The notes beneath the pieces are model-generated. The model was not told the origin of the DNA, made no database searches, and saw nothing but the letters and a program-made list of their open reading frames with translations. Positions 1,897 through 33,935 of a DNA stretch of 63,814 nt are shown in pieces (within the stretch, counting starts at the first letter, position 1; every line of letters starts with the position of its first letter). The stretch is from a virus, in the IMG/VR virus record IMGVR_UViG_3300025449_000447, positions 1-63,814 of that record; one strand, 5' to 3'. The translations under genes were made by a program, and so were the position numbers.

Positions 1897-2262
1897 ATGA
1901 GCGATTACTGGGGTTTTCACCTTATCTTAGACGCATCTGGCTGTGATCATGATGCTATTACCTCTCACGATAACATCTATAATTTTGTTAAACAGCTAGT
2001 GACTGATATTGATATGGTTGCCTATGGTGAACCTCAGATTATCAATTTTGGTTCAGGAAATAAAGCAGGATACACTCTCGTTCAATTGATTGAGACCAGT
2101 AATATCTGCGCCCATTTCGTCAACGAACATAATCATATGTATCTTGACGTTTTCTCCTGTAAGACTTTTGACCCAGAAGTTGTTATTAGACTTGTTGCTG
2201 AATATTTCAAGTCAACAAACTATAATACAGCTTTCATTGAAAGGCAAGCGCCAAACACATGA
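1897..2262 (+). CDS. speD: S-adenosylmethionine decarboxylase proenzyme (pyruvoyl type)
   Basis: 121 residues, matching the short bacterial/archaeal SpeD class. Key residues are in place. Ser68 in IETSNICAH would be the self-cleavage site giving the pyruvoyl group, His73 the processing base, and Cys88 in YLDVFSCK the catalytic acid. The N-terminal GFHLILDASGCD matches the family. The product, decarboxylated SAM, is the aminopropyl donor for spermidine. A strong AAGGAGG at 1881-1887 precedes it. An ATG-AAA-TGA minigene at 1892-1900 overlaps the start and might tune initiation. Some T4-like cyanophages also carry speD. Confidence 0.85.
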   Translation: MSDYWGFHLILDASGCDHDAITSHDNIYNFVKQLVTDIDMVAYGEPQIINFGSGNKAGYTLVQLIETSNICAHFVNEHNHMYLDVFSCKTFDPEVVIRLVAEYFKSTNYNTAFIERQAPNT

Positions 2263-2687
2263 TAACAGGATTTACTTGTGGAGCCTTTGATCTTTTGCAT
2301 CCAGGGCATATTGCTATGTTGAAAGACTGTAAGAGTCAGTGTGATTGGCTTATCGTTGGCCTTCACACTGACCCAACAATAGATAGACCAGAAAAAAATA
2401 AACCTATACAGACTGTGTTCGAGAGATGGATGCAGTTAGATTCATGCGTTCATGTTGATTATATCATTCCTTATGATACTGAACACGACCTAATAAATAT
2501 GATGGCGACGCTAGATATCAACAAGAGATTTGTCGGAATAGATCATCAGCTGGATGTTATAACAGGCCAATCTATATGCGATAGGCGTGGTATAGAAATT
2601 ATATACAATGAAAGAAATCATGATTACAGTTCAAGTGAATTGAGGAGCAGAATACGTAATGACACACGTCGAAGAATATTTTTCTGA
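2259..2687 (+). CDS. HIGH-type sugar-phosphate nucleotidylyltransferase (HldE-C/TagD-like)
   Basis: 142 residues, one Rossmann-like domain of the cytidylyltransferase superfamily. Residues 7-20 (CGAFDLLHPGHIAM) hold the HxGH signature, and YSSSELRSRI near the C-terminus matches the second conserved (S/T)-rich motif. Members attach CMP or AMP to glycerol-, choline-, ethanolamine- or heptose-phosphates. With GmhA-, HddA- and GmhB-like genes alongside, heptose-1-phosphate is the likely substrate (inference). It overlaps speD by 4 bases and the isomerase gene by 29 bases. Confidence 0.8.
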   Translation: MITGFTCGAFDLLHPGHIAMLKDCKSQCDWLIVGLHTDPTIDRPEKNKPIQTVFERWMQLDSCVHVDYIIPYDTEHDLINMMATLDINKRFVGIDHQLDVITGQSICDRRGIEIIYNERNHDYSSSELRSRIRNDTRRRIFF

Positions 2688-3246
2688 AGTTGCTCGCATC
2701 GGCGAGTTGATCGATAAACAAAAGATAGAGAGTTTTGCCAATGCCCTGCGCACCACCCGTGACATTTCGAATGGACGAGTATTTGTTCTCGGCGTGGGTG
2801 GGTCTGCTGGCAATGCATCCCATATGGTTAATGACCTGCGAAAACTCTGCGGCATCGAGGCTTATGCTCCAACAGACAATGTTAGCGAACTCTCTGCTCG
2901 CACAAACGATGAAGGGTTTGATACAGTATTCATCGAGTATCTACGCACCTCACGGTTTACACAAGGAGACACAGTAATTGTTCTCTCTGTTGGTGGTGGT
3001 AGCGTTGAGCGTAACGTATCTGTTGGTCTTATTAAGGCAATTGATTACGCACATAAAATGGAGGGTTGCGTACTTTCGATTGTGGGTAAAGAAGATGGCT
3101 ACGCTGCTACAAAGTCTGACCTAGCAGTCGTTGTTCCCCCAGTAAATCCAGATAGAATTACACCACATAGTGAAGCGTTCCAGGCTGTCGTCTGGCATTG
3201 TGTAGTTTCACATCCTGAATTGCAAATGAGAAAAACAAAATGGTAA
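2659..3246 (+). CDS. gmhA: SIS-domain phosphosugar isomerase, GmhA-like (sedoheptulose-7-phosphate isomerase)
   Basis: 195 residues, the normal GmhA length. The SIS core begins with VLGVGGSAGNASHMVNDLRK near residues 42-62, the phosphosugar-binding turn. SELSARTNDEGFDTVF follows, and the C-terminal TPHSEAFQAVVWHCVVSH carries Glu, Gln and His residues expected at the metal site. GmhA converts sedoheptulose 7-phosphate to D-glycero-D-manno-heptose 7-phosphate, the first committed heptose step. GAGGAG lies 11 bases before the ATG. A GmhA-like sugar isomerase of other specificity remains possible. Confidence 0.82.
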   Translation: MTHVEEYFSEVARIGELIDKQKIESFANALRTTRDISNGRVFVLGVGGSAGNASHMVNDLRKLCGIEAYAPTDNVSELSARTNDEGFDTVFIEYLRTSRFTQGDTVIVLSVGGGSVERNVSVGLIKAIDYAHKMEGCVLSIVGKEDGYAATKSDLAVVVPPVNPDRITPHSEAFQAVVWHCVVSHPELQMRKTKW

Positions 3247-3797
3247 AAGCAGTATTTTTTGATAAAGACGGTGTATTGAATAAGCTAGTCAAGCGGCCAA
3301 CTAAGATGACTGCTCCCTGGACTATTGAAGAGTTGGAGTTCAACTGGCAGTCAAAAGCAGCAGTTAATCTCGTAAAGAAATATGGTTGGAAGACGTTTAT
3401 GATTACCAATCAGCCAGATTTCTCCGACGAAGATCCAACAGAAGGTACGGATATCGCAGATCTGTTCGCTATTATGCAGTGTACTCTGTCTTATTTTAGG
3501 TTTGATGGGTTTGACTATTGCACCGAGAGAAGCTCAGATCATTATAAACCAGCAACAGGAATGGTTGATGATATTGCCAAAGAACATGATATTGATCTGA
3601 AACATAGCATCATGATTGGTGATAGCTGGCGCGATATGGTTCTGGCTTACAAGTGCGGAATGAAGAGCTACTATATAGGTAGTAAAGAAGATATAGATTT
3701 CTGGCCAGAAGAATGGCGTAATGTAAGACCAGATTATTTCGTCAATAATGTATATGCTGCTTGTAATCATATCGTAAACGGTGGAGCTATGGAATGA
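3240..3797 (+). CDS. gmhB: HAD phosphatase, GmhB/HisB-N-like
   Basis: 185 residues. HAD motif I is FFDKDGVLN (residues 6-14), motif II MITNQPD, motif III the lysine of HYKPATGM, motif IV MIGDSWRDM. This is the HAD-IIIA arrangement of GmhB, which removes the 7-phosphate from heptose 1,7-bisphosphate. The zinc-binding cysteine loop of classical GmhB is not evident between motifs II and III. It overlaps the isomerase gene by 7 bases and the transaldolase gene as ATGA. Confidence 0.8.
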   Translation: MVKAVFFDKDGVLNKLVKRPTKMTAPWTIEELEFNWQSKAAVNLVKKYGWKTFMITNQPDFSDEDPTEGTDIADLFAIMQCTLSYFRFDGFDYCTERSSDHYKPATGMVDDIAKEHDIDLKHSIMIGDSWRDMVLAYKCGMKSYYIGSKEDIDFWPEEWRNVRPDYFVNNVYAACNHIVNGGAME

Positions 3798-4525
3798 AAC
3801 TATTTGCTGATGGTGCTGACTTTGATGGTATTATTGAGGCGGCAAAGGATCTCGAGATTAAAGGATTCACGACTAATCCTACATTGATGCGTAAAGCAGG
3901 TGTAACTGATTATGTTAAATTCTCTCAGAGTCTAATTGAATACCTATACAATAAGAGACCAGACACTTGCTTGAGTCTTGAGGTATTCGCTGATGATAAT
4001 GAGGGAATGATTCGTCAAGCCAGAGAGATTGACTCTTGGTCTGATGAATATCCAGTGTATGTTAAGATTCCTGTAATGAATACGAAAGGCGAATCAACAG
4101 AAGAAGTAATCTCTGTATTGTCTAATGAAGGAATCAAGCTCAACGTAACAGCAGTGTTTACTATCGATCAGGTACGGGATATCGTGAAGTGTATCACTAA
4201 AGATACCCCAACTATCATCTCTGTGTTTGCTGGACGTATTGCTGACTTGGGTCATAATCCAATCCACATCATGGAAGAAGCAATACAGATTATTGACGCT
4301 GGTCTACGCAATTATCCAAACAAGACTACTGAATTGCTATGGGCCAGCCCACGCGAGGCATATAATTATATTGAAGCATCTAATATTGGTTGTGATATTA
4401 TTACGATGACACCTGACCTAATTAAGAAGGTAAAGGGTTTCCGTTCTAAGTCACTAGAGCAGTTCTCAAAAGAAACGGTTCAAATGTTTTGTAATGATGC
4501 GGTGGCAAGTGGATTTAAAATATAA
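3794..4525 (+). CDS. talC: Transaldolase / fructose-6-phosphate aldolase family (TalC-like)
   Basis: 243 residues, close to the small TalC/FSA class. Asp6, the TTNPTLMRKAG loop (26-36), the Schiff-base lysine Lys91 in VYVKIPV, GIKLNVTAVFT, and SVFAGRIADLGHN are all present. The family interconverts sugar phosphates through a dihydroxyacetone Schiff base; transaldolases connect to sedoheptulose 7-phosphate. Cyanophages carry talC to steer pentose-phosphate flux. Here it sits inside a heptose operon, so supplying the GmhA substrate is the simplest role (inference). Confidence 0.85.
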   Translation: MKLFADGADFDGIIEAAKDLEIKGFTTNPTLMRKAGVTDYVKFSQSLIEYLYNKRPDTCLSLEVFADDNEGMIRQAREIDSWSDEYPVYVKIPVMNTKGESTEEVISVLSNEGIKLNVTAVFTIDQVRDIVKCITKDTPTIISVFAGRIADLGHNPIHIMEEAIQIIDAGLRNYPNKTTELLWASPREAYNYIEASNIGCDIITMTPDLIKKVKGFRSKSLEQFSKETVQMFCNDAVASGFKI

Positions 4526-5282
4526 AAAAGCACTCGTAACAGGTGGTACTCGCGGACTCGGTAAAGTTGTTGCTGAGTTGTTTACGTCAAAGGGTATTGA
4601 TGTCGTAACCTGTTCTAGAGGAAAACAGGATACACCAAATCATTACCAGTGTGATGTATCCAGTGCTTGGACTGTATCTAGGATGATTAAAGATCATCAA
4701 GATCTAGATATTATCGTCTGTAACGCTGGTATATATGGGCCGATTGGGCCACTAGAAACTATCAAACCAGACAACTGGAAACAGACCATAGAAGTCAATC
4801 TAATGGGTGTTGTTAATGTGTGTCGGTTTGCCGTTCCCATCTTAAAAGCAAATGGTAAGGGTAAGATCATCATCCTATCGGGTGGTGGTGCTACTCAACC
4901 CATGCCTAATTTCTCAGCGTATGCAGCATCAAAGGCAGCTGTCGTTAGATTCGGCGAGACACTAGCAGAAGAGCTGAGGGAATTTAACATTGATGTTAAT
5001 TGTGTTGCTCCAGGATCATTGAATACTGACTTTATGGAACAGGCAATTGCCGCTGGCCCAGAGCTAGCGGGTCAGTCATTTTATGATAGGATGATAAAGC
5101 AACAACAAGAGGGTGGTGCTGATATCAATATAGCTGCTGAGTTGTGTTACTTCCTAGCATCAGAACAGAGTGATGGATTAACAGGTAAATTAGTAGCAGC
5201 CCAGTGGGACGACTGGAAAAATATGGATAAATACAATACGACTGGTGATTTATATACATTAAGAAGAGTGAATAAACAATGA
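4494..5282 (+). CDS. Short-chain dehydrogenase/reductase
   Basis: 262 residues (254-262 depending on start). The cofactor motif TGGTRGLGK is near residues 16-24, NAG follows the fourth strand, and catalytic Tyr and Lys lie in YAASK. This is a classical SDR oxidoreductase. In this operon it probably oxidises, reduces or epimerises the nucleotide-linked or free sugar. Starts at 4494, 4497 or GTG 4509 all overlap the transaldolase end and none has a strong ribosome binding site, so translational coupling is likely. Confidence 0.85.
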   Translation: MMRWQVDLKYKKALVTGGTRGLGKVVAELFTSKGIDVVTCSRGKQDTPNHYQCDVSSAWTVSRMIKDHQDLDIIVCNAGIYGPIGPLETIKPDNWKQTIEVNLMGVVNVCRFAVPILKANGKGKIIILSGGGATQPMPNFSAYAASKAAVVRFGETLAEELREFNIDVNCVAPGSLNTDFMEQAIAAGPELAGQSFYDRMIKQQQEGGADINIAAELCYFLASEQSDGLTGKLVAAQWDDWKNMDKYNTTGDLYTLRRVNKQ

Positions 5283-6259
5283 ATATAGCTATAGTAGGAT
5301 GTGGCCTTGTAGGTAACAAGAGAGCAAAACAACTGGCTGGTTGTAAGTTAGTTGCCGTCCACGATATAAACAAACAAAAATGCATTGACTTAATTTCCGC
5401 AACAGGTTATACTGATTGTGTGATAGAAAACGACTGGAAGAATGCCGTTACCCGAAACGATGTTGATGTTGTCATCGTTGCTACAATGCATAATATGTTA
5501 GCAGAGATTACGATCGCAGCATTAGAAGCAGGTAAACATGTATTGGTTGAGAAGCCAGTCGGTAAAGATATTGAAGACATCAACAATATCATCCTAGCAG
5601 CAGATAAAGCTGGTAAGATGGTTCGTGTTGGTTTCAATCATCGCTACCATCCTGCTATGATGAAAGCAACCAAGCTGATCGAACAGGGATACATTGGTGA
5701 TATCATGTATATCCGTGCTCGCTACGGGCATGGTGGTCGCGTAGGATACAACAAAGAATGGCGTGGTGACCCTAAGTTGGCTGGCGGTGGTGAGCTGGTC
5801 GAACAGGGTATTCATATCATTGACCTCGCTCAGAAGTTCTTGGGTAAATTTACTGATGTAAAGGGTTTCGCCGAGACATTCTATTGGGATCAGGTGTTGG
5901 ATGATAATGCTTTCCTAACACTGCGTAACGATAAGAAACAGACAGCATTCATTCATGTAAGCTGTACCGAATGGAAGAATACCTTCTCGTTTGAGATCTA
6001 CGGCAAGAAGGGTAAGCTAGAAGTCAATGGTCTTGGCGGTAGCTACGGTATTGAGACTCTCAAGTATTATGAAGTCAGACCAGAGATGGGCCCACCACAT
6101 ACAACTATCTGGGAATACCCACAGGAAGATAAGTCTTGGGAACAAGAGATCATCGAATTTATGGAAGATATTAGAACTAACAGAACACCAGAAGCAGGAC
6201 TACAGAGTGCTAGGAATGCTTGGGAAGTAATCAACATAATCTATGGAGCAAGTAAATAA
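5279..6259 (+). CDS. Gfo/Idh/MocA-family NAD(P)-dependent sugar oxidoreductase
   Basis: 326 residues, typical two-domain length. The N-terminal Rossmann motif GCGLVG is at residues 7-12. The EKP motif (VEKPVGK) near residue 93, whose lysine is catalytic, is followed by GFNHRYHPAMM. A C-terminal alpha/beta domain carries the substrate-site histidine in EQGIHIIDLAQ. Such enzymes oxidise or reduce sugar or nucleotide-sugar hydroxyls. It starts as ATGA on the SDR stop, so the two redox enzymes probably act in sequence on the same sugar (inference). Confidence 0.88.
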   Translation: MNIAIVGCGLVGNKRAKQLAGCKLVAVHDINKQKCIDLISATGYTDCVIENDWKNAVTRNDVDVVIVATMHNMLAEITIAALEAGKHVLVEKPVGKDIEDINNIILAADKAGKMVRVGFNHRYHPAMMKATKLIEQGYIGDIMYIRARYGHGGRVGYNKEWRGDPKLAGGGELVEQGIHIIDLAQKFLGKFTDVKGFAETFYWDQVLDDNAFLTLRNDKKQTAFIHVSCTEWKNTFSFEIYGKKGKLEVNGLGGSYGIETLKYYEVRPEMGPPHTTIWEYPQEDKSWEQEIIEFMEDIRTNRTPEAGLQSARNAWEVINIIYGASK

Positions 6260-6867
6260 TGGCTATCGAGAAAAGATTATTGTTAACAAGATTGGCTAAC
6301 TGCCCTGTGCTTAATCTTGGTGAATACACATATGGTATGCCGCAAGGATTGGTGTTAGAATTTGGCGTTCACGTTGGTAATACTATCAGAGCAATCTCTC
6401 ATTTTACTGATCGACCAGTGTTTGGCTTCGATTCCTTTGAGGGATTGCCAGAAGATTGGTCTGGTGCTGGTGGTGTAAAGAAAGGCCATTTCGCCTGTGA
6501 GATCCCAGAAAATCTCAGACACAATGTGGTTCTTGTAAAGGGTTGGTTCGAGGATACACTGGGCCCATTCTGTAAGGCAATGAACCATAACAAAGTTGCT
6601 TTCGTTCATATTGACTGCGACATTTACTCTGGTGCTAAGACTATCTTTGGTGAGTTGACCAAGGCAGATATGTGGCAAGATGGTAGCGTTATTGTATTTG
6701 ATGAGATTGCTGGCTATCCTGGATGGGAAGAAGGCGAGTTCAAAGCATTCAATGAGTTTCTTGATGCTACTGGTTGGAGATGGAAACTGTTAGGTATTCA
6801 TGGCGGTAACAGAGCAGACCTAGACCAAGGTGGTGAAGTTAAGTGTGCCTTTAAGATCTTTAAGTGA
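6259..6867 (+). CDS. TylF/MycF-like class I SAM-dependent O-methyltransferase
   Basis: 202 residues. SAM motif I is LVLEFGVHVGNTIRAI (about 31-46). FGFDSFEGLPEDW matches the TylF/MycF/NovP family. HIDCDIYSGA carries the acidic metal-binding residues of these Mg-dependent sugar O-methyltransferases. A late-operon O-methylation of the sugar or glycan is likely (inference). It starts on the last base of the preceding stop. Confidence 0.8.
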   Translation: MAIEKRLLLTRLANCPVLNLGEYTYGMPQGLVLEFGVHVGNTIRAISHFTDRPVFGFDSFEGLPEDWSGAGGVKKGHFACEIPENLRHNVVLVKGWFEDTLGPFCKAMNHNKVAFVHIDCDIYSGAKTIFGELTKADMWQDGSVIVFDEIAGYPGWEEGEFKAFNEFLDATGWRWKLLGIHGGNRADLDQGGEVKCAFKIFK

Positions 6868-6874
6868 GAGTAAA

Positions 6875-7903
6875 ATGGAAAATAACTTTGATCTAATAGA
6901 ACAGAATGAAGCAGGTAAGAATGCAAACGGCGGAACCGAACTATTCATGCGGTTCCTCTATGGTGGTAGAATTCCTCGTGAGTTGTTAGTCAATACTCAG
7001 ATTATACCTGGACGTATCAGAGAATTAGATTCGTCAAAGATTCGCGTATTAACATTACATGATCTACCAGAAGATCCTGAATGTCAGAAACTGAAGGACG
7101 CTCATTTCCGTAAGAAATTTCATAAGATAGTATTCATCTCAAACTGGCAGTATCAACGGTTCAGAGATATTTTACGTGTTCCCTATTCAACAGAACATAC
7201 TGTTATTGAAAATGGTTTAGAGCCAATAGATGTTGATATTGATAAGAAACCAGATGTTGATGATGTCGTTAATATCTGTTACATTACTACACCTCATCGT
7301 GGCCTAGAACTATTGGTACCGATGTTTGAGATGTTAGCCAAGGAAGATAAGAAGATACACCTACACGTTCACTCTTCCTTCAATATGTATGGCTGGCCCG
7401 ATGCTGATAAGCCATACGAAAAACTATTTGATACATGTAAGAGTCACCCACAGATTACATATCACGGATATACTGAGTTCAACCAACTTAGAGGGATGAT
7501 GAAAGACTATCATATCTGTGCCTATCCTTCTATCTGGGAAGAGACTGCCTGTCGTTCTATCCTAGAAGCAATGAGTGCTGGTATGTTGTGCGTTCATCCT
7601 AACTTTGGTGCATTGTTTGATACGACTGGCGGCATGAATTTTATGTATGATGGTTCTGCTGATAAGAGACAACATGCTGATATGTTTGGCGAACACCTCT
7701 ATTCTGCTATCATGGCTGTTAGAACTAAGTCTGATGCTGTTCGTTCTCGTCTGTTGTTTAACAAGTCATATGTTGATACACGCTATCATCCTGACCTAGC
7801 AATCAGCCGCTGGAACAGAATGCTTGGTGATCTAAACGATAAGTATGATACACCAGAAAAGAGAAAACTAGAAACACAAATGTTCTCATACAAGGTAGGA
7901 TAA
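6875..7903 (+). CDS. GT4-family glycosyltransferase
   Basis: 342 residues from ATG 6875, chosen over an upstream in-frame ATG that would overlap the methyltransferase. It is a GT-B type group 1 transferase. HKIVFISNWQ and TVIENG mark the N-domain end, and the C-domain has the nucleotide-sugar signature SIWEETACRSILEAMSAG with its E-x7-E spacing. It would transfer the phage-made sugar to an acceptor (lipopolysaccharide, virion protein or DNA; not decidable here). The N-terminal domain is short for the family. No signal peptide or transmembrane segment is seen, so it should be cytoplasmic. Confidence 0.85.
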   Translation: MENNFDLIEQNEAGKNANGGTELFMRFLYGGRIPRELLVNTQIIPGRIRELDSSKIRVLTLHDLPEDPECQKLKDAHFRKKFHKIVFISNWQYQRFRDILRVPYSTEHTVIENGLEPIDVDIDKKPDVDDVVNICYITTPHRGLELLVPMFEMLAKEDKKIHLHVHSSFNMYGWPDADKPYEKLFDTCKSHPQITYHGYTEFNQLRGMMKDYHICAYPSIWEETACRSILEAMSAGMLCVHPNFGALFDTTGGMNFMYDGSADKRQHADMFGEHLYSAIMAVRTKSDAVRSRLLFNKSYVDTRYHPDLAISRWNRMLGDLNDKYDTPEKRKLETQMFSYKVG

Positions 7904-8889
7904 TGATCTTAACAAAGACTCCATTACGTATCAGTTTCTTCAGCGGTGGCAGCGATCTGCCATCGTTTTATTCTAAGGAAGATGGTGCTGCTCTCTCTGT
8001 TACTATAAGCAAATACATCTATGTCATGGTTCATAAGACACCTCACCTCGGTGTTAAAGTGATGTACGATCAGATTGAAGAATTTCCTGATGTTGAGGCA
8101 ATGCAAACAAACATTACCAGCGAGACATTGAAGTACTTCAACATTGAGAAAGAAATAACAGTAGCATCTATATCTGATATTCTATCTAAGGGATCAGGTC
8201 TAGGATCATCATCTGCTTTTACCGTTGGTCTGATTAATGCATTATCAGCAAGTAAATGGGGTGTTGCCTCTAATGGTTACCTAGCAGATATTGCCTGCGA
8301 GATAGAGATGAATAGATGTAACTATCCCGTAGGAAAACAAGACCAGTATGCTGCTGCTTATGGTGGGCTGAACCTATTTCGTTTTAGAAAAAATGGTGAG
8401 GTATCAGTAGACCATACAAATGTTTCCCTTTCTACCCTAGGCAAATTAGAATCAAATCTAATGCTAGTATATAGTGGAAAGGGCAGATCAGCAAATAGTA
8501 TCTTACAGAAACAATCAGCAGCAATGAGTGATGCTGATAAGTTCAATCTAGTAAGACGTAGCAGAGACAAAGCATTTACTGGTCTTGAATACCTGCGCAA
8601 TGGTGATGTTGACTCTTTTGGTGACCTATTACATGAGGCATGGCTAGATAAGAAAGGAGTAGTCAGCGAGATAACACAAGACTACTTCGATGACGTGTAT
8701 CAAAATATAAGAATAGCTGGAGCAATTGGTGGTAAACTACTTGGTGCTGGCGGTGGTGGTTTCTTTATATTCTATGTTACTCCTGATAAACAAGAGCATG
8801 TCAGACATCATATTGAAAACTATACTTCATGTAAAGTGTATGACTTCAAATTCACTGATCGTGGATCCCAAATAGTTTCAATTTGCTAA
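7903..8889 (+). CDS. hddA: GHMP kinase, HddA-like (D-glycero-D-manno-heptose-7-phosphate kinase)
   Basis: 328 residues, normal HddA length. Family landmarks are TPLRISFFSGGSDLP at the N-terminus, the ATP-binding GSGLGSSSAFTVGLINAL near residues 97-114, PVGKQDQYAAAYGGLN (catalytic region), and the C-terminal GGKLLGAGGGGF. HddA phosphorylates heptose 7-phosphate at C1. Its presence with GmhA- and GmhB-like genes is the main reason to read the operon as a heptose pathway. The start overlaps the glycosyltransferase stop (TAATG). Confidence 0.88.
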   Translation: MILTKTPLRISFFSGGSDLPSFYSKEDGAALSVTISKYIYVMVHKTPHLGVKVMYDQIEEFPDVEAMQTNITSETLKYFNIEKEITVASISDILSKGSGLGSSSAFTVGLINALSASKWGVASNGYLADIACEIEMNRCNYPVGKQDQYAAAYGGLNLFRFRKNGEVSVDHTNVSLSTLGKLESNLMLVYSGKGRSANSILQKQSAAMSDADKFNLVRRSRDKAFTGLEYLRNGDVDSFGDLLHEAWLDKKGVVSEITQDYFDDVYQNIRIAGAIGGKLLGAGGGGFFIFYVTPDKQEHVRHHIENYTSCKVYDFKFTDRGSQIVSIC

Positions 8890-8945: not shown

Positions 8946-9326
8946 ATGGATAATGTAATCAAGTTTCCTAAGAACAACATTAATCCTTCGTTCGTTCCCA
9001 ACGATCTGAACGAGATTGATGAAAGAATGCAAATGATAAAGTTCCAACATATCATTGAGACTCTTGAGACTATTCTACCTACACTATTCCAGCAGATTGA
9101 ACTTGCTGGTTTCAATATAAACGACGAAGAAGATATATCTATTAAAGATGGTGCGTTTGTGATAGAAGCAATTAGATCATTCCTATGTAAGACGCATGGT
9201 ATAGACCATCCGTTTCAGACAATAGCAGAGGAAGTATTTGAGCGAACAAGCGATACTACCTTTAGAATTATTGATAAGCTGAATGTTACACTTAAAGAAG
9301 ACATGATGGAGAAAGGAACCAGCTAA
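8946..9326 (+). CDS. Conserved hypothetical T4-like protein
   Basis: 126 residues, acidic and largely helical, with an N-terminal MDNVIKFP. Proteins of this size and composition sit near replication genes in T4-like cyanophages. No catalytic motif is seen. It is the first gene after a sigma70-like promoter. AACCAG (9317-9322) and CTGGTT (9330-9335) form an inverted repeat around its stop codon. Confidence 0.6.
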   Translation: MDNVIKFPKNNINPSFVPNDLNEIDERMQMIKFQHIIETLETILPTLFQQIELAGFNINDEEDISIKDGAFVIEAIRSFLCKTHGIDHPFQTIAEEVFERTSDTTFRIIDKLNVTLKEDMMEKGTS

Positions 9327-9343: not shown

Positions 9344-10192
9344 ATGATTATTGTTGACCTCAATCAAGTAATGCTGTCTAATCTACTAATGCAATTGGGT
9401 AATCATACAAACGCTCAACTAGAAGAGAACATGGTACGCCATATGGTTCTCAATTCATTACGTTCTTATAGGCAGAAGTTCGGTAGTGAATATGGTGAGT
9501 TGGTGATTGCTTGTGATAACACCAACTACTGGCGTAAACAGGTTTTCCCATATTATAAGGCGAACCGTAAAAAGAATCAAGAGAAATCTGAGCTTAACTG
9601 GCAATCAATCTTTGAGTGCATGAATAAGATTCGTGCTGAGCTCAAGGAGTATTTCCCATACAAAGTAATTGATATTGAATCAGCTGAGGCGGATGATATC
9701 ATTGCCACACTCGTGAAAGAGTTTAGCGAGTTTCCAGCCCAAGATATCCTAATCTTATCTGGTGATAAAGACTTCATTCAATTACATGTGAATGATAACG
9801 TAAAGCAGTATGATCCAGTACGTAAAAAGTATATCAAACATGCTGATCCTGTACGTTACCTCAAAGAGCATGTATTAAAGGGAGACTCGGGCGATGGCGT
9901 ACCTAATGTGCTTTCTAATGACAATTGTTTTGTTGTTGGTGAGCGTCAGAAGCCATTGACTCAAAAGAAGATTGATGCTTTGTTAGATACAGATATTGAT
10001 GAAAAGCATCCTAACTATCGCAATTACATGCGAAACAAACAACTGATTGACCTAAGTATGGTTCCTATTGATATTTCTATGAAAGTGATGGAATCATATG
10101 ATAGTCAGTCATCAAAAGGTCGTGAGAAATTACTTAATTATTTTATCGTGAACAAACTGAAACATTTAACAGAACATATTTCGGAGTTTTAA
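9344..10192 (+). CDS. rnh: RNase H / FEN-type 5'-3' exonuclease (T4 Rnh-like)
   Basis: 282 residues; T4 RNase H is about 305. FEN-family acidic motifs are in order: MIIVDLNQ (Asp5), VIACDN then YYKANRKKN (arch entry), SAEADDIIATL, LSGDKDFIQL, and GDSGDGVPN (helix-3-turn-helix). It removes RNA primers from lagging-strand fragments in T4 replication. No clear Shine-Dalgarno precedes the ATG; an inverted repeat at 9317-9335 sits just upstream, so coupling to the previous gene is possible. Confidence 0.9.
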   Translation: MIIVDLNQVMLSNLLMQLGNHTNAQLEENMVRHMVLNSLRSYRQKFGSEYGELVIACDNTNYWRKQVFPYYKANRKKNQEKSELNWQSIFECMNKIRAELKEYFPYKVIDIESAEADDIIATLVKEFSEFPAQDILILSGDKDFIQLHVNDNVKQYDPVRKKYIKHADPVRYLKEHVLKGDSGDGVPNVLSNDNCFVVGERQKPLTQKKIDALLDTDIDEKHPNYRNYMRNKQLIDLSMVPIDISMKVMESYDSQSSKGREKLLNYFIVNKLKHLTEHISEF

Positions 10193-26793: not shown

Positions 26794-26910
26794 ATGATTC
26801 CTAGCTGGTATAAAATCTACACACGCATCATTGACAATACTATAAAGATAGTTTGGTTGATATTACTGATAACATGGCTGCTTGATGGCGCCAAATTGCT
26901 TGTAAAATAA
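26794..26910 (+). CDS. 38-residue membrane micro-protein
   Basis: A 38-codon frame one base after the preceding stop, with one clear transmembrane helix (IKIVWLILLITWLLDGAKLL) and a basic N-terminal half. It ends one base before the -35 box of the tmRNA promoter. Confidence 0.5.
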   Translation: MIPSWYKIYTRIIDNTIKIVWLILLITWLLDGAKLLVK

Positions 26911-26911
26911 C

Positions 26912-26942
26912 TTGACTTTTTACCCAATGTAGGCTATAAATA
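26912..26942 (+). promoter_or_regulatory. tmRNA promoter: sigma70-type with overlapping T4 late octamer
   Basis: TTGACT (26912-26917), 17-base spacer, TATAAA (26935-26940). The -10 box extends to an exact TATAAATA (26935-26942), the T4 late-promoter consensus. The RNA might therefore be made both early and late. Confidence 0.7.
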
Positions 26943-26944
26943 AT

Positions 26945-27268
26945 ATGCGATGGTCGTTGACGTTATACGGCATAAGCACACTGGACTCGGGGGCGGTACC
27001 CGACGCCTCCACCATAGATACATGGTGCTGTTACCAATTAAGGTGTAAGGATGCCATCAAAAAGAACGTACAGCTCCGTTCTGGCAAATCGTCATCATGT
27101 ATCTTTGCTGGGGGCGAAATAGGATCGACAGGTGTGATAAAGGTATTACTGAGATCATAGCAAACGTCATAGATGCAAACGATAATGCACCTATCGCTAT
27201 GGCACTAGCTGCCTAAGCATGAGCTTTTGGTAGTTTTGGCTTGGAAACAGAACAAAACTACCGTCAAT
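26945..27268 (+). ncRNA. ssrA: Circularly permuted (two-piece, alpha-type) tmRNA
   Basis: The gene has the acceptor piece first and the coding piece second. Acceptor piece: T-arm TCGGG/CCCGA (26987-27003), then CGCCTCC-A-CCA ending at 27014. About 95 bases of intervening sequence follow. The coding piece starts GGGGGCG (27110-27116), which pairs with CGCCTCC over 7 bp and includes the G3-U70 pair recognised by alanyl-tRNA synthetase. AAATAGGATCGACAGG follows as in alphaproteobacterial tmRNA. The tag frame encodes ANDNAPIAMALAA then TAA. GGTAGTTTTG/CAAAACTACC (27229-27238, 27253-27262) forms a 10-bp hairpin. TTGACG (26957-26962) can pair with CGTCAA (27262-27267) to join the pieces. Outer ends are approximate. 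Confidence 0.9.
27175..27216 (+). other. tmRNA proteolysis-tag reading frame
   Basis: The resume codon is taken as GCA 27175, preceded by TAG plus two bases as in E. coli tmRNA. It reads ANDNAPIAMALAA and stops at TAA. The AND start and the ALAA end, a ClpXP-type degron, are typical. An in-frame GCA also occurs at 27160, five codons earlier, so a longer tag is possible. Confidence 0.85.
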
Positions 27269-30423: not shown

Positions 30424-30449
30424 GGGGAGCATTTAGCTCCCCTTTTTTT
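30424..30449. terminator. Terminator after gene 32 (convergent genes)
   Basis: GGGGAGC, loop ATTTA, GCTCCCC, then seven T on the plus strand. It sits between gene 32 and the convergent 998-residue gene, whose stop codon touches its T-run. The minus-strand side lacks a T-run of comparable length. Confidence 0.9.
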
Positions 30450-33444
30450 ATGCTGCCATTCCGAACAGATCTTTGAGACGTTTCGCTGCATCAGCAGGTT
30501 CAACCATACCAACATTATCTTTATCAAATCTAGCATTACCTTCTTTACCAGATGCCGGAGCCTGACCACCACTGTTAGATGGAGCTTCAGCAGCAATATT
30601 TTTATCAGCCGATCTCTGACTTGCTATGTCGTTAGAAGATGCTTTGGCTAAATCGGCACCAGTAGACGGAGCTGCAGGAGTCGGAGTACCACCACCGCCA
30701 CCACTGGCCGCTTCGCTTCTCATTCCGCTGCCACCACCCTTGGCTGGTTTTGCACCACTACCACTATCTTCCTTCTTGGCTTGTGGTGGAGTAGCTGTAT
30801 CTGGACCTCCTGAGCCGACTGGGTCTTTACTCTTATCTTCTTTCTTTCCGCCCTGATCACCACCGCCACCACCACTGGCTGCAGTACCCTCAACTTCACC
30901 AGCAGCTATGGATCCATTTCTTGGGATATCAAATGTTCCCTGTTCGCCTTTCGCAGCAGAAAAATGCATAGGATCTTTGACGGATTTCCAATTCATACCC
31001 CAACCAAGACCCCACTTAGCAGCAAGCGCACCAGTCTCTGCTGGTAGATCTGTCTTTGTTGACTTGTTTGGATTTGATCCAGGATTGATATCGATAGCAG
31101 CACCAGATGCGTGGTAACTCTTTACGCTTGGGTTGTTTACGTTTGCACGATCAGCATAACCACCTATGCTACTAATCTTATAACCCGTGGCCTCAAGATC
31201 ACTAATGAATCCTTGGAAGTTCTTAGCATAAGCACCAGCAACCTGTACCGACTTGCCGCTAGCAGTTTTTACGTTTACAAGATTTGGTTTTGATACAGGA
31301 CCACCAACACCCTTACTTGCTCCACCTATTGCTGCAGGACCACCAGCAGCACCACCAGATCCTTGACCGCCACCAGCTCCAGATGGCATCGATACTGAAG
31401 GGCTACCAGAAGGGCCAGCACCAGTAGCAGCAGTAGCAGATTTTGCTACTGATTCTTTAACTGCATCAGCTCTCTGCATAACAACTGCAGCGCCAGAACC
31501 ACCACCTCCGCCAGAAGGTTTGCCAGCTCCTACAGGACTGGGTGGGCCCATCTCTTGTGCTTTTGATACATCTGCACTCTTGGCTGCTCCAGCAGCAGGA
31601 GCTTGTGTAGTTGGTGTTGAAGTGAATATGATCTTATCTGCTTTAAGGATAATTGTATCAGCTTCAAATGTTAGTTCTTTTTGTCTCTTTTGTTTTTCAG
31701 CATCAGCGTCATCTTCTTGTTTTCTTTCAACAGCAGCCTGACGTTCTGCCATGATAGCAGAAGAAATATCGGGCATATTATCGTTGGAAGAAACAATTTG
31801 TGGTGTGTTTTGTTTTGTGGCAACAATTGGTGCTTCAGATTTTACTGGTCCTGCAGCTTCTGGTTCTGGTTTAATGTCGCCTTTGTCTTCAAGATTATTT
31901 CTACCAGCCTGTTGTTGATCTTCTGGTAATTCTTTATCTTCTTCATCTTTTTGCGATGAGAATTCTTTCCACCAATTATATACTTCATATGCTAGCGCCA
32001 AAGAACCTAAAACATTTATAGCAGTCCACACCCATCCTGGGCCTGGTAATGCTAGACCAGCGAGAGCACTACCTGCTCTGACCATAAATCTTCTAAACAC
32101 AGATGGTGCAGTCTTTTCTAAGAATGTTAAGAATTTAGACCATTTGCTTACGCCTTGTGTCGCTGCATTACTTGCAGCTCCAGCAACTTTGGTTGCTACA
32201 GCACCAGCACCTTCGGCGACAGCTCCCGCAGCTTTTGTTGCTATTGAGCCAGCTCCTTCTACTACTGCACCTGCAGCTTTAGAAGCGCCACTTAATACTC
32301 CTTTACCAGCGCTCATTAGACCGCTACCAGCAGAGCCTGCGATATCCATAGCGCCACCAGCAAGTTTACTTAATAATCCTGGACCTTCTTCTTTCTTGGC
32401 TTGTGGCTGCTGTTGTGGTTTTGTTGATGTAAGATGATCAGCTATATCTTTTAGATACCCATTTGCTGTATCTATCTTATCACCATTACGGCTTATCGCC
32501 TCTTCTATTTTTTCCATAGAAAGGCTCTGGCTTACGCCACTCTTAGAAACAGCCTCTCCGTCTTGTTTTTCGGATGAACGAATCTTTTCGCCGTTCTGTC
32601 CAAGACCTAATTTCTCAGCTTCTTTTCTAGAGATAAATTGACCGCCACCAACACCCTTGTGCGTATCGGCCCACATACCAGCTTTTTCTCTGAACTCATA
32701 TCTCTCTCTTTCAGGGACGATTGGTTCGGTAACAGCTGGTTTTGCATCAGGTTTTTTATCTTGGTTAGATTTTAACATATCTCTGAGCAGCTGATTCGTC
32801 ATCATCTGCTGTTCGACTATCGCCTTAGAAAAAGACTCAGTCGATTCAGACATACCACCGCCTGATTTGTTTTCGGCTTTTGGTTTATTTTCTTCTCTTT
32901 TTTGAACTAATCCTTTTAGGCCAGGAAATGCTTTTACGAATAGATCATCACCAATATCTTTGACTGCACCACCAATAGATTTAGTTATAGATTTTGTTAG
33001 TTCTTTTAATTCTCTAACGACTTCAGGTTCTTCTGTACCAAAACCATCTCTCTTTTTTACATCCTGTTTAGACGCAACTTTTAGTTCTTTTACTAGACCC
33101 TTTACTTCTTCAAAGAATGGGCGAGTCGGACCATAGCTTACACCATAGTCAGCATTCTGTTTCATTTCTTTGGTTTCAGTTTTTGATGTAGTTGTCTGTT
33201 TTTGTAACTTGACCTGCTCTTTTGTAAGGCTGATCAGTTCTTTTAGAGCATCATTAGTCTTTTTTTGCTCTTTCTTGAGCTCAGAAACTTCTTTTGTGGT
33301 CTTTACAGATTCTTTAGCAACTTCTTTCGCGGAATCTTTATTCTGTTTAGATATGTCAAGCTGTTCCTGCGCAGTTCTTGCTATATCAGGATTATTAGTC
33401 TGCTGTAAGAGTCTCTTTAGATCGTCGTCTGTAAAATTAGCCAT
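30448..33444 (-). CDS. Large virion protein with M15 metallopeptidase domain; candidate tape measure
   Basis: 998 residues. Regions in order: charged coiled-coil N-terminus (1-210); Ala/Gly repeats (370-450); a hydrophobic segment (LAGLALPGPGWVWTAINVLG, about 470-500); Ala/Gly/Pro/Ser low complexity; then an M15-type domain with SYHASGAAIDIN (His778, Asp785) and DPMHFSA (His827) as zinc ligands; then a low-complexity tail. M15 enzymes cut peptidoglycan peptides. Being downstream of the gp26/gp51 frameshift pair and having membrane and muralytic segments, it may be the gp29 equivalent (inference). Long phage low-complexity proteins of other roles are the alternative. Confidence 0.6.
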   Translation of the reverse strand: MANFTDDDLKRLLQQTNNPDIARTAQEQLDISKQNKDSAKEVAKESVKTTKEVSELKKEQKKTNDALKELISLTKEQVKLQKQTTTSKTETKEMKQNADYGVSYGPTRPFFEEVKGLVKELKVASKQDVKKRDGFGTEEPEVVRELKELTKSITKSIGGAVKDIGDDLFVKAFPGLKGLVQKREENKPKAENKSGGGMSESTESFSKAIVEQQMMTNQLLRDMLKSNQDKKPDAKPAVTEPIVPERERYEFREKAGMWADTHKGVGGGQFISRKEAEKLGLGQNGEKIRSSEKQDGEAVSKSGVSQSLSMEKIEEAISRNGDKIDTANGYLKDIADHLTSTKPQQQPQAKKEEGPGLLSKLAGGAMDIAGSAGSGLMSAGKGVLSGASKAAGAVVEGAGSIATKAAGAVAEGAGAVATKVAGAASNAATQGVSKWSKFLTFLEKTAPSVFRRFMVRAGSALAGLALPGPGWVWTAINVLGSLALAYEVYNWWKEFSSQKDEEDKELPEDQQQAGRNNLEDKGDIKPEPEAAGPVKSEAPIVATKQNTPQIVSSNDNMPDISSAIMAERQAAVERKQEDDADAEKQKRQKELTFEADTIILKADKIIFTSTPTTQAPAAGAAKSADVSKAQEMGPPSPVGAGKPSGGGGGSGAAVVMQRADAVKESVAKSATAATGAGPSGSPSVSMPSGAGGGQGSGGAAGGPAAIGGASKGVGGPVSKPNLVNVKTASGKSVQVAGAYAKNFQGFISDLEATGYKISSIGGYADRANVNNPSVKSYHASGAAIDINPGSNPNKSTKTDLPAETGALAAKWGLGWGMNWKSVKDPMHFSAAKGEQGTFDIPRNGSIAAGEVEGTAASGGGGGDQGGKKEDKSKDPVGSGGPDTATPPQAKKEDSGSGAKPAKGGGSGMRSEAASGGGGGTPTPAAPSTGADLAKASSNDIASQRSADKNIAAEAPSNSGGQAPASGKEGNARFDKDNVGMVEPADAAKRLKDLFGMAA

Positions 33445-33935
33445 TAGTTACCTATCTTTGCCAACTTTTCTTGTCCACGAGTATAAGCAGCAACACCAAG
33501 GATAGCACCGAAAGCGATATGAATCATACCACCATTAGACAGAGATAGACTCTGCCATGCGGTATAACCTACCTGGACGCCTGATCCTTTGTAGAGAATA
33601 GGTAGGAACATAGATATGACTGGGAATCCGATAAAGTCCATAAAACAGATACCCATATAGAGCCAACCCATTGCTGGACGCCAGTATGCCTTTACCCAGT
33701 GTTCTTCTTGTTTATCTAGCTGACTGTCTACTATCTTTTCATCAATAGCGGTCTGAGCCAAGCCAACAGAAGCTGTTGCTTGGGCTTGTGCTGTTTGCTG
33801 TTGCATTTGCACAGTTTGCTGAGCCATCGTTGAAGATGCTTGATTATTGTTATTGTTCACATCAATCACAGTAACAGCAGGAGCAGGAGCTGCCACTGGC
33901 GCATCATCATCAGCTGGTTTCGCAAATTTAGCCAT
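33444..33935 (-). CDS. Holin-like membrane protein
   Basis: 163 residues. A polar Ala/Gln-rich N-terminus of about 75 residues (with an Asn run) is followed by hydrophobic segments WRPAMGWLYMGICFMDFIGF, SMFLPILY and MIHIAFGAILGVAAYTRGQE. This resembles the 3-transmembrane holin type seen in gene-transfer agents (GTA_holin_3TM). The start overlaps the gp51-like frame. Its position between the tail chaperones and the peptidase protein leaves a virion role possible. Confidence 0.5.
   Translation of the reverse strand: MAKFAKPADDDAPVAAPAPAVTVIDVNNNNNQASSTMAQQTVQMQQQTAQAQATASVGLAQTAIDEKIVDSQLDKQEEHWVKAYWRPAMGWLYMGICFMDFIGFPVISMFLPILYKGSGVQVGYTAWQSLSLSNGGMIHIAFGAILGVAAYTRGQEKLAKIGN

Follow-up and report, generated by a model that had tools for sequence, protein, structure and literature searches.

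What sugar would a T4-like phage make with enzymes of its own, and to what would it attach that sugar? The question is raised by nine genes at positions 2259-8889 of the 63,814-nt record IMGVR_UViG_3300025449_000447, a fragment of a T4-like myovirus that was analysed at its full length and is called the window here. The answer that we favour on balance, with modest confidence, is that this cassette makes a heptose-type nucleoside diphosphate (NDP) sugar that is then used by the phage's own GT4 glycosyltransferase, the most likely acceptor being a glycan of the host envelope.

The locus

All nine genes are complete open reading frames (ORFs) on the plus strand, in the same orientation. The enzyme classes given to them in an initial annotation made from the sequence alone hold, Pfam agreeing for each: CTP_transf_like (E-value 6e-14), SIS_2 (3e-7), HAD (1e-9), TAL_FSA (3e-41), adh_short (9e-41), GFO_IDH_MocA (1e-18), TylF (2e-7), Glyco_trans_1_4 (5e-8) and GHMP N and C (1e-10 and 5e-8). 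The genes had also been described as overlapping. Every ORF does abut or overlap the next, except at the methyltransferase/GT4 junction, where there is overlap only if GT4 starts at GTG 6830; relatives and the methyltransferase stop favour ATG 6875, just after that stop, and from there the two do not overlap.

Is the grouping real? Three further contigs carry the arrangement with nucleotide identities of 99.99-100% (L003, 12,000 bp; L002, 7,241 bp; L052, 6,919 bp), which rules out an assembly artefact. A chance grouping is ruled out because gene order is kept across relatives, a six-gene core standing in the same order in dozens of contigs with protein identities of about 30-75%. A scan for operon promoters and terminators found such sites no more often than in shuffled sequence.

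A predicted route to an NDP-heptose

The reactions given here, like the nucleotide, acceptor and purpose of the cassette, are predictions. The transaldolase TalC (3794-4525) would supply a ketose phosphate, for which sedoheptulose 7-phosphate is the simplest candidate. It has the FSA/TalC fold and is nearest to TIGR02134. Its Schiff-base lysine, K91, is present in 118/118 phage and 59/59 bacterial sequences, and the same is true of F145, which is not the tyrosine of FSA. A catalytic lysine together with a phenylalanine in the TalC fold favours transaldolase over aldolase, so the invariance of K91 and F145 favours transaldolase activity here.

The GmhA-like isomerase, which we call SIS1 (2659-3246), would turn the ketose phosphate into a heptose 7-phosphate. 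The top PDB folds for its AlphaFold2 (AF2) model (pLDDT 90) are GmhA proteins (TM about 0.65-0.74, identity 22-26%). An anomeric phosphate would be added by the HddA-like GHMP kinase (7903-8889), which matches solved HddA structures over its full length (3k85, 1e-36, residues 2-322; 4usm, 7e-32; 4n3o, 1e-31) and whose GSGLGSSS and GKQDQ motifs are kept in 133 phage sequences. Removal of the 7-phosphate would fall to the GmhB-like HAD-IIIA phosphatase (3240-3797), in which D8, D10, K103, D128 and D132 are conserved, that is, the DxD motif and the downstream Lys and Asp of GmhB. The GmhB-type Cys/His zinc loop before RKP occurs in none of the phage HAD sequences; it is mostly retained in the bacterial cluster members.

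The 142-aa nucleotidylyltransferase (2259-2687) would complete the NDP-heptose with CTP or ATP, giving a CDP- or ADP-sugar. That it is of the HIGH type rather than the HddC type, as first proposed, is borne out by the match to PF01467 (6e-14) and by an HPGH motif (HxGH). Its best PDB relatives, PCYT2, TagD and 5x9q, are a mix of CTP and heptose enzymes. An origin from a bacterial HldE-like fusion was considered and rejected: the match with 44% identity spans 36 residues only, and elsewhere identity is about 29% over 126.

In the window, an SDR (short-chain dehydrogenase/reductase) oxidoreductase (4494-5282) and a Gfo/Idh/MocA oxidoreductase (5279-6259) would oxidise or reduce the sugar and a TylF-like methyltransferase (6259-6867) would cap it. 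GT4 (6875-7903, the ORF being open from GTG 6830), predicted to be a retaining enzyme of GT-B fold, would use the cassette product as donor. In bacteria, clustered homologues of the SDR enzyme with 36-46% identity have Gfo and HddA as neighbours. The Gfo enzyme has bacterial homologues 41-55% identical and one in phage L212 at 58%, and the phage sequences form one clade; L212 also carries a homologue of the SDR enzyme. Tailoring by this pair, which the initial annotation had proposed, is supported by the pair's presence in bacterial clusters that have this core as well. Judged by sequence, a complete route within the phage from a transaldolase-made ketose phosphate to an NDP-sugar, also proposed there, is supported.

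Related phage loci

With the kinase, TalC, SIS and rnh proteins as queries, about 200 viral loci were retrieved. In about 120 viral contigs a core of nucleotidylyltransferase, SIS, HAD, transaldolase, GT4 and GHMP kinase genes lies beside rnh; the SDR, Gfo/Idh and methyltransferase genes are extras of the window. GT4 is present at every locus that covers the whole stretch from AdoMet decarboxylase to rnh, and all 11 virus records that were searched have a single copy of it. While GT4 stays constant, the sugar genes of the locus vary: there may be the full set (nucleotidylyltransferase, SIS1, HAD, TalC and HddA), a SIS like that of Caulobacter phage Cr30 (SIS2) without TalC, a pairing of HAD and GT4, or GT4 accompanied or not by an epimerase/dehydratase-like gene. 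Tailoring genes also differ among relatives, which have various methyltransferases or a 2OG-Fe oxygenase; SDR and Gfo occur in the window and L212, and homologues of the TylF-like methyltransferase occupy other cassette positions in several relatives.

Does GT4 use what the cassette makes? Among 73 phages, the GT4 tree accounts for the presence of heptose genes with 6 changes (shuffle mean 16.9; 0/500 shuffles as low), the weakly resolved rnh tree of the same phages with 14 (shuffle mean 16.8; 29/500 as low). The fit of the sugar genes to the GT4 tree supports but does not prove use of the cassette product by GT4.

Two side observations concern these loci. In phiM12 and RHph_I1_18 the order is GT4, one ORF without known family, a small ORF and rnh; the ORF in the kinase's place encodes 355-388 aa (L287:6925-8091, L288:6921-7988) and has no Pfam match. 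ORFs that look peroxiredoxin-like, to judge by their sequences alone, lie at various cassette positions in relatives (for instance L020:5308-5913 and L054:2614-3153).

Bacterial counterparts

Homologues of SIS1 that are 50-61% identical are found in many bacterial phyla. A synteny search, suggested along with the initial annotation, was positive: the same gene set occurs in bacterial clusters. Thirty-eight of 80 bacterial SIS1 loci have an HddA kinase, 36 of these also an HddC/MurU-like NTP_transferase, and such HddA-NTP_transferase sets are often preceded by homologues of the window's SDR and Gfo pair. In 17/80 loci a HIGH-type transferase is fused to a PfkB kinase, giving the HldE domains in swapped order. 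HddA and an HldE-like kinase are never found together (0/80). HddA with HddC, and HldE, are the two known routes for activating heptose 7-phosphate. Because it is attached to either of these modules, the SIS1-HAD-TalC core most likely has a heptose phosphate as its product. The HddA-like kinase and short HIGH-type transferase of the phages are a third arrangement. Examples of the fusions with transferase before kinase, the reverse of E. coli HldE, are L075:11878-13428 and L127:4291-5853.

All six enzyme homologues occur together in 18/80 bacterial loci. A Rhizobium tubonense cluster (L131), for instance, has the order SDR-Gfo-HddA-NTP_transferase-SIS1-HAD-TalC and so includes homologues of six window enzymes (identities: SIS1 54%, TalC 47%, Gfo 54%, SDR 45%). 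The bacterial cluster has the HddC/MurU-like NTP_transferase as activator and lacks the phage GT4, whereas the window has the HIGH-type enzyme and GT4. No paper on this bacterial cluster was found in the open literature, subscription papers lying outside the search.

Is the product a manno-heptose?

A heptose product is favoured by the end-to-end match of the kinase to HddA, by GmhA being the fold nearest to the SIS1 model, and by the swap at this locus between SIS1 and the Cr30-like SIS, which is also of GmhA type. Several observations weigh against it. First, the cassette proteins reach no NCBIfam equivalog cut-off: the bit scores (cut-offs in brackets) are 49.8 (209.45) for GmhA (TIGR00441), 141.8 (600) for HddA (NF049969), 45 (150) for GmhB, 72 (181.5) for RfaE domain II and 275.5 (281.95), just short, for transald_staph (TIGR02134). 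'GmhA-like' and similar labels are therefore right and full enzyme names are not. Second, the zinc ligands of GmhA, His-Glu-Gln-His, are reported to be completely conserved, and its Q175E variant is inactive (PMC5705639); SIS1 has H55, D59, E172 and H180 at these places, and the His-Asp-Glu-His pattern is found in 121/121 phage and 80/80 bacterial SIS1 sequences. Third, the strict tie between SIS1 and a transaldolase, described below, would be superfluous if host sedoheptulose 7-phosphate were the substrate. Finally, the weak resolution of the rnh tree may blunt the comparison with the GT4 tree. As far as sequence and model can tell, SIS1 is no typical GmhA, although its fold is nearest to GmhA: its zinc site is altered.

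The tie is seen in both bacteria and phages. In 142 evenly drawn alphaproteobacterial genomes, with SIS1 called above 225 bits and TIGR02134 above its family cut-off, SIS1 occurs in 15 and the transaldolase in 17; the transaldolase is in 15/15 genomes with SIS1 vs 2/127 without (Fisher 2e-17, with the centre genome excluded and shared ancestry of the genomes uncorrected). At phage loci with room downstream, TalC accompanies 107/107 SIS1 genes vs 0/8 SIS2 genes. Such strict co-occurrence implies that SIS1 works jointly with TalC, and what the two make may be something other than plain manno-heptose.

The alternative that survives best is that SIS1 and its dedicated transaldolase produce and interconvert a ketose phosphate of some other kind, either a different stereoisomer of heptose or a longer sugar that arises when the transfer goes to another aldose phosphate, and that the HddA- or HldE-like kinases accept it too. 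The invariant Asp and Glu at the zinc site speak for this, as do an insertion in the SIS1 phosphate loop and the tie itself. Yet in bacteria each of the two known modules for heptose activation occurs joined to the core, the transaldolase could merely boost the supply of sedoheptulose 7-phosphate, and the Cr30-like SIS, in the same place in the locus, likewise has the H-D-E-H pattern. We regard this alternative as possible although not likely. Equally tentative is its extension, taken as a whole: that SIS1 and the TIGR02134 transaldolase form a pathway, widespread in bacteria and so far uncharacterised, to a sugar phosphate other than ordinary D-glycero-D-manno-heptose, and that T4-like phages have adopted it, rewired it with a HIGH-type activator, so that their nucleotide sugar would differ from the bacterial one, and joined it to a transferase of their own with phage-specific decoration. 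For the initial heptose proposal this means that bacterial context, including both activation routes, strengthens it in general, but not the identity of the sugar as manno-heptose, since the zinc site of the isomerase is not that of GmhA.

The acceptor

The best matches of the GT4 model are retaining GT-B enzymes that include teichoic acid, protein, lipid and lipopolysaccharide transferases; acceptors of so many types make the model uninformative on this point. The place of the locus beside rnh and phoH suggests that the cassette is expressed early in infection, which fits a change to the envelope better than virion glycosylation. We would therefore rank a host envelope glycan first, altered early in infection against superinfection, and a virion protein second.

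Could the sugar instead be placed on phage DNA? GT4 might act on modified bases in the phage's own DNA, in the way that RB69 attaches arabinose; these are T4-like phages, and a constant transferase with an exchangeable sugar supply resembles RB69 (PMC6024577). A T4 gp42-like dCMP hydroxymethylase, however, was not found in 21/22 GT4-bearing virus contigs, the window fragment included, in a search (query G002 protein; PF00303 earlier) aimed at the hydroxymethylcytosine type only. It is present in 1/5 contigs above 140 kb, the negatives including contigs of 162 kb and 169 kb. The sole positive is the cassette-bearing G002 (167.8 kb), whose enzyme (L285:1435-2112) is about 60% identical to the T4-type dCMP hydroxymethylase. 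Named relatives have an ordinary-scoring thymidylate synthase or none (PF00303). With the gp42-like enzyme in 1/22 contigs only, T4-type hydroxymethylcytosine glycosylation, one of the uses first suggested, is unlikely in cassette phages in general, and we consider DNA decoration of any type improbable. That TalC mainly redirects the pentose-phosphate pathway, a role that has been proposed in cyanophages, beside unrelated envelope genes, is very hard to credit: the cyanophage TalC discussed as an auxiliary gene (PMC9599517) is of the same superfamily (phrog_440), but the window's TalC lies inside the cassette, goes with SIS1 in bacteria as it does in phages, and scores 275 bits for TIGR02134 (a bacterial cluster member, 333.6) vs 104 for the phage TalC family.

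Comparison with known systems

Sugar-nucleotide clusters are known from phages, and this cassette adds a new version. Cr30 (NC_025422, L058) is, like the window, a T4-like phage of an alphaproteobacterium, with a row of genes for glutaredoxin, GT4 (40% identical), an HddA-like kinase (37-39%) and a protein annotated as phosphoheptose isomerase. Unlike the window, it has a SIS type only 26-27% identical and an epimerase before GT4, and no TalC, HAD, HIGH-type nucleotidylyltransferase, SDR or Gfo was found at its heptose genes. The cyanophages Bellamy and SynMITS9220M01 (L059, L060) share an HddA-like kinase and genes annotated as phosphoheptose isomerase, but their clusters are longer and include epimerases (and a carbamoyltransferase in Bellamy), the kinase is 26-30% identical, and there is no SIS1-type match.

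The GDP-D,D-heptose route of C. jejuni and B. pseudomallei (GmhA, HddA, GmhB, HddC) has the step order proposed for the window, and the window kinase matches the C. jejuni and Bacteroides HddA structures; the window differs in its HIGH-type rather than HddC-type transferase, altered isomerase zinc site and dedicated transaldolase. RB69 has been shown to arabinosylate its DNA, and a module that includes a SIS protein has been proposed to supply the sugar (PMC6024577). RB69 resembles the window as a T4-like phage with its own transferase and such a proposed module, but its arabinose is on hydroxymethylcytosine DNA, and no dCMP hydroxymethylase was detected in the window (a fragment) and most relatives.

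Host and surrounding genes

Upstream lies an AdoMet decarboxylase gene (1897-2262, plus strand; PF02675, 6e-23), the neighbour in most relatives and outside the sugar route. Downstream on the same strand a small ORF (8946-9326) separates the cassette from the rnh/5'-3' exonuclease gene (9344-10192; phrog_107, 2e-55) that anchors the locus. T4-type genes in the window encode a gp32-like single-stranded DNA-binding protein, helicase loader, baseplate and tail tube proteins, PhoH and Rnh. Infernal found a permuted alpha transfer-messenger RNA (alpha_tmRNA, RF01849, 131 bits) at 26908-27262 on the plus strand, with the tag ANDNAPIAMALAA according to ARAGORN. Among named phages, those whose GT4 is nearest have as hosts Sinorhizobium, Rhizobium, Caulobacter, Ochrobactrum, Pelagibacter and Stenotrophomonas. 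From the tmRNA type and the hosts of relatives, the host is likely an alphaproteobacterium. On the minus strand a 998-aa protein (30448-33444) has an endolysin-like stretch near its C-terminus and adjoins a holin-like gene (33444-33935).

Implications

The locus points to a constant transferase slot in T4-like phages with an exchangeable sugar supply, a counterpart to the glycosylation already known from relatives of T4. The central question of the cassette becomes which substrate SIS1 isomerises. TIGR02134, a family named for the pentose-phosphate pathway, is linked, within clusters for sugar nucleotides, to a single family of isomerases, and this would change many bacterial annotations.

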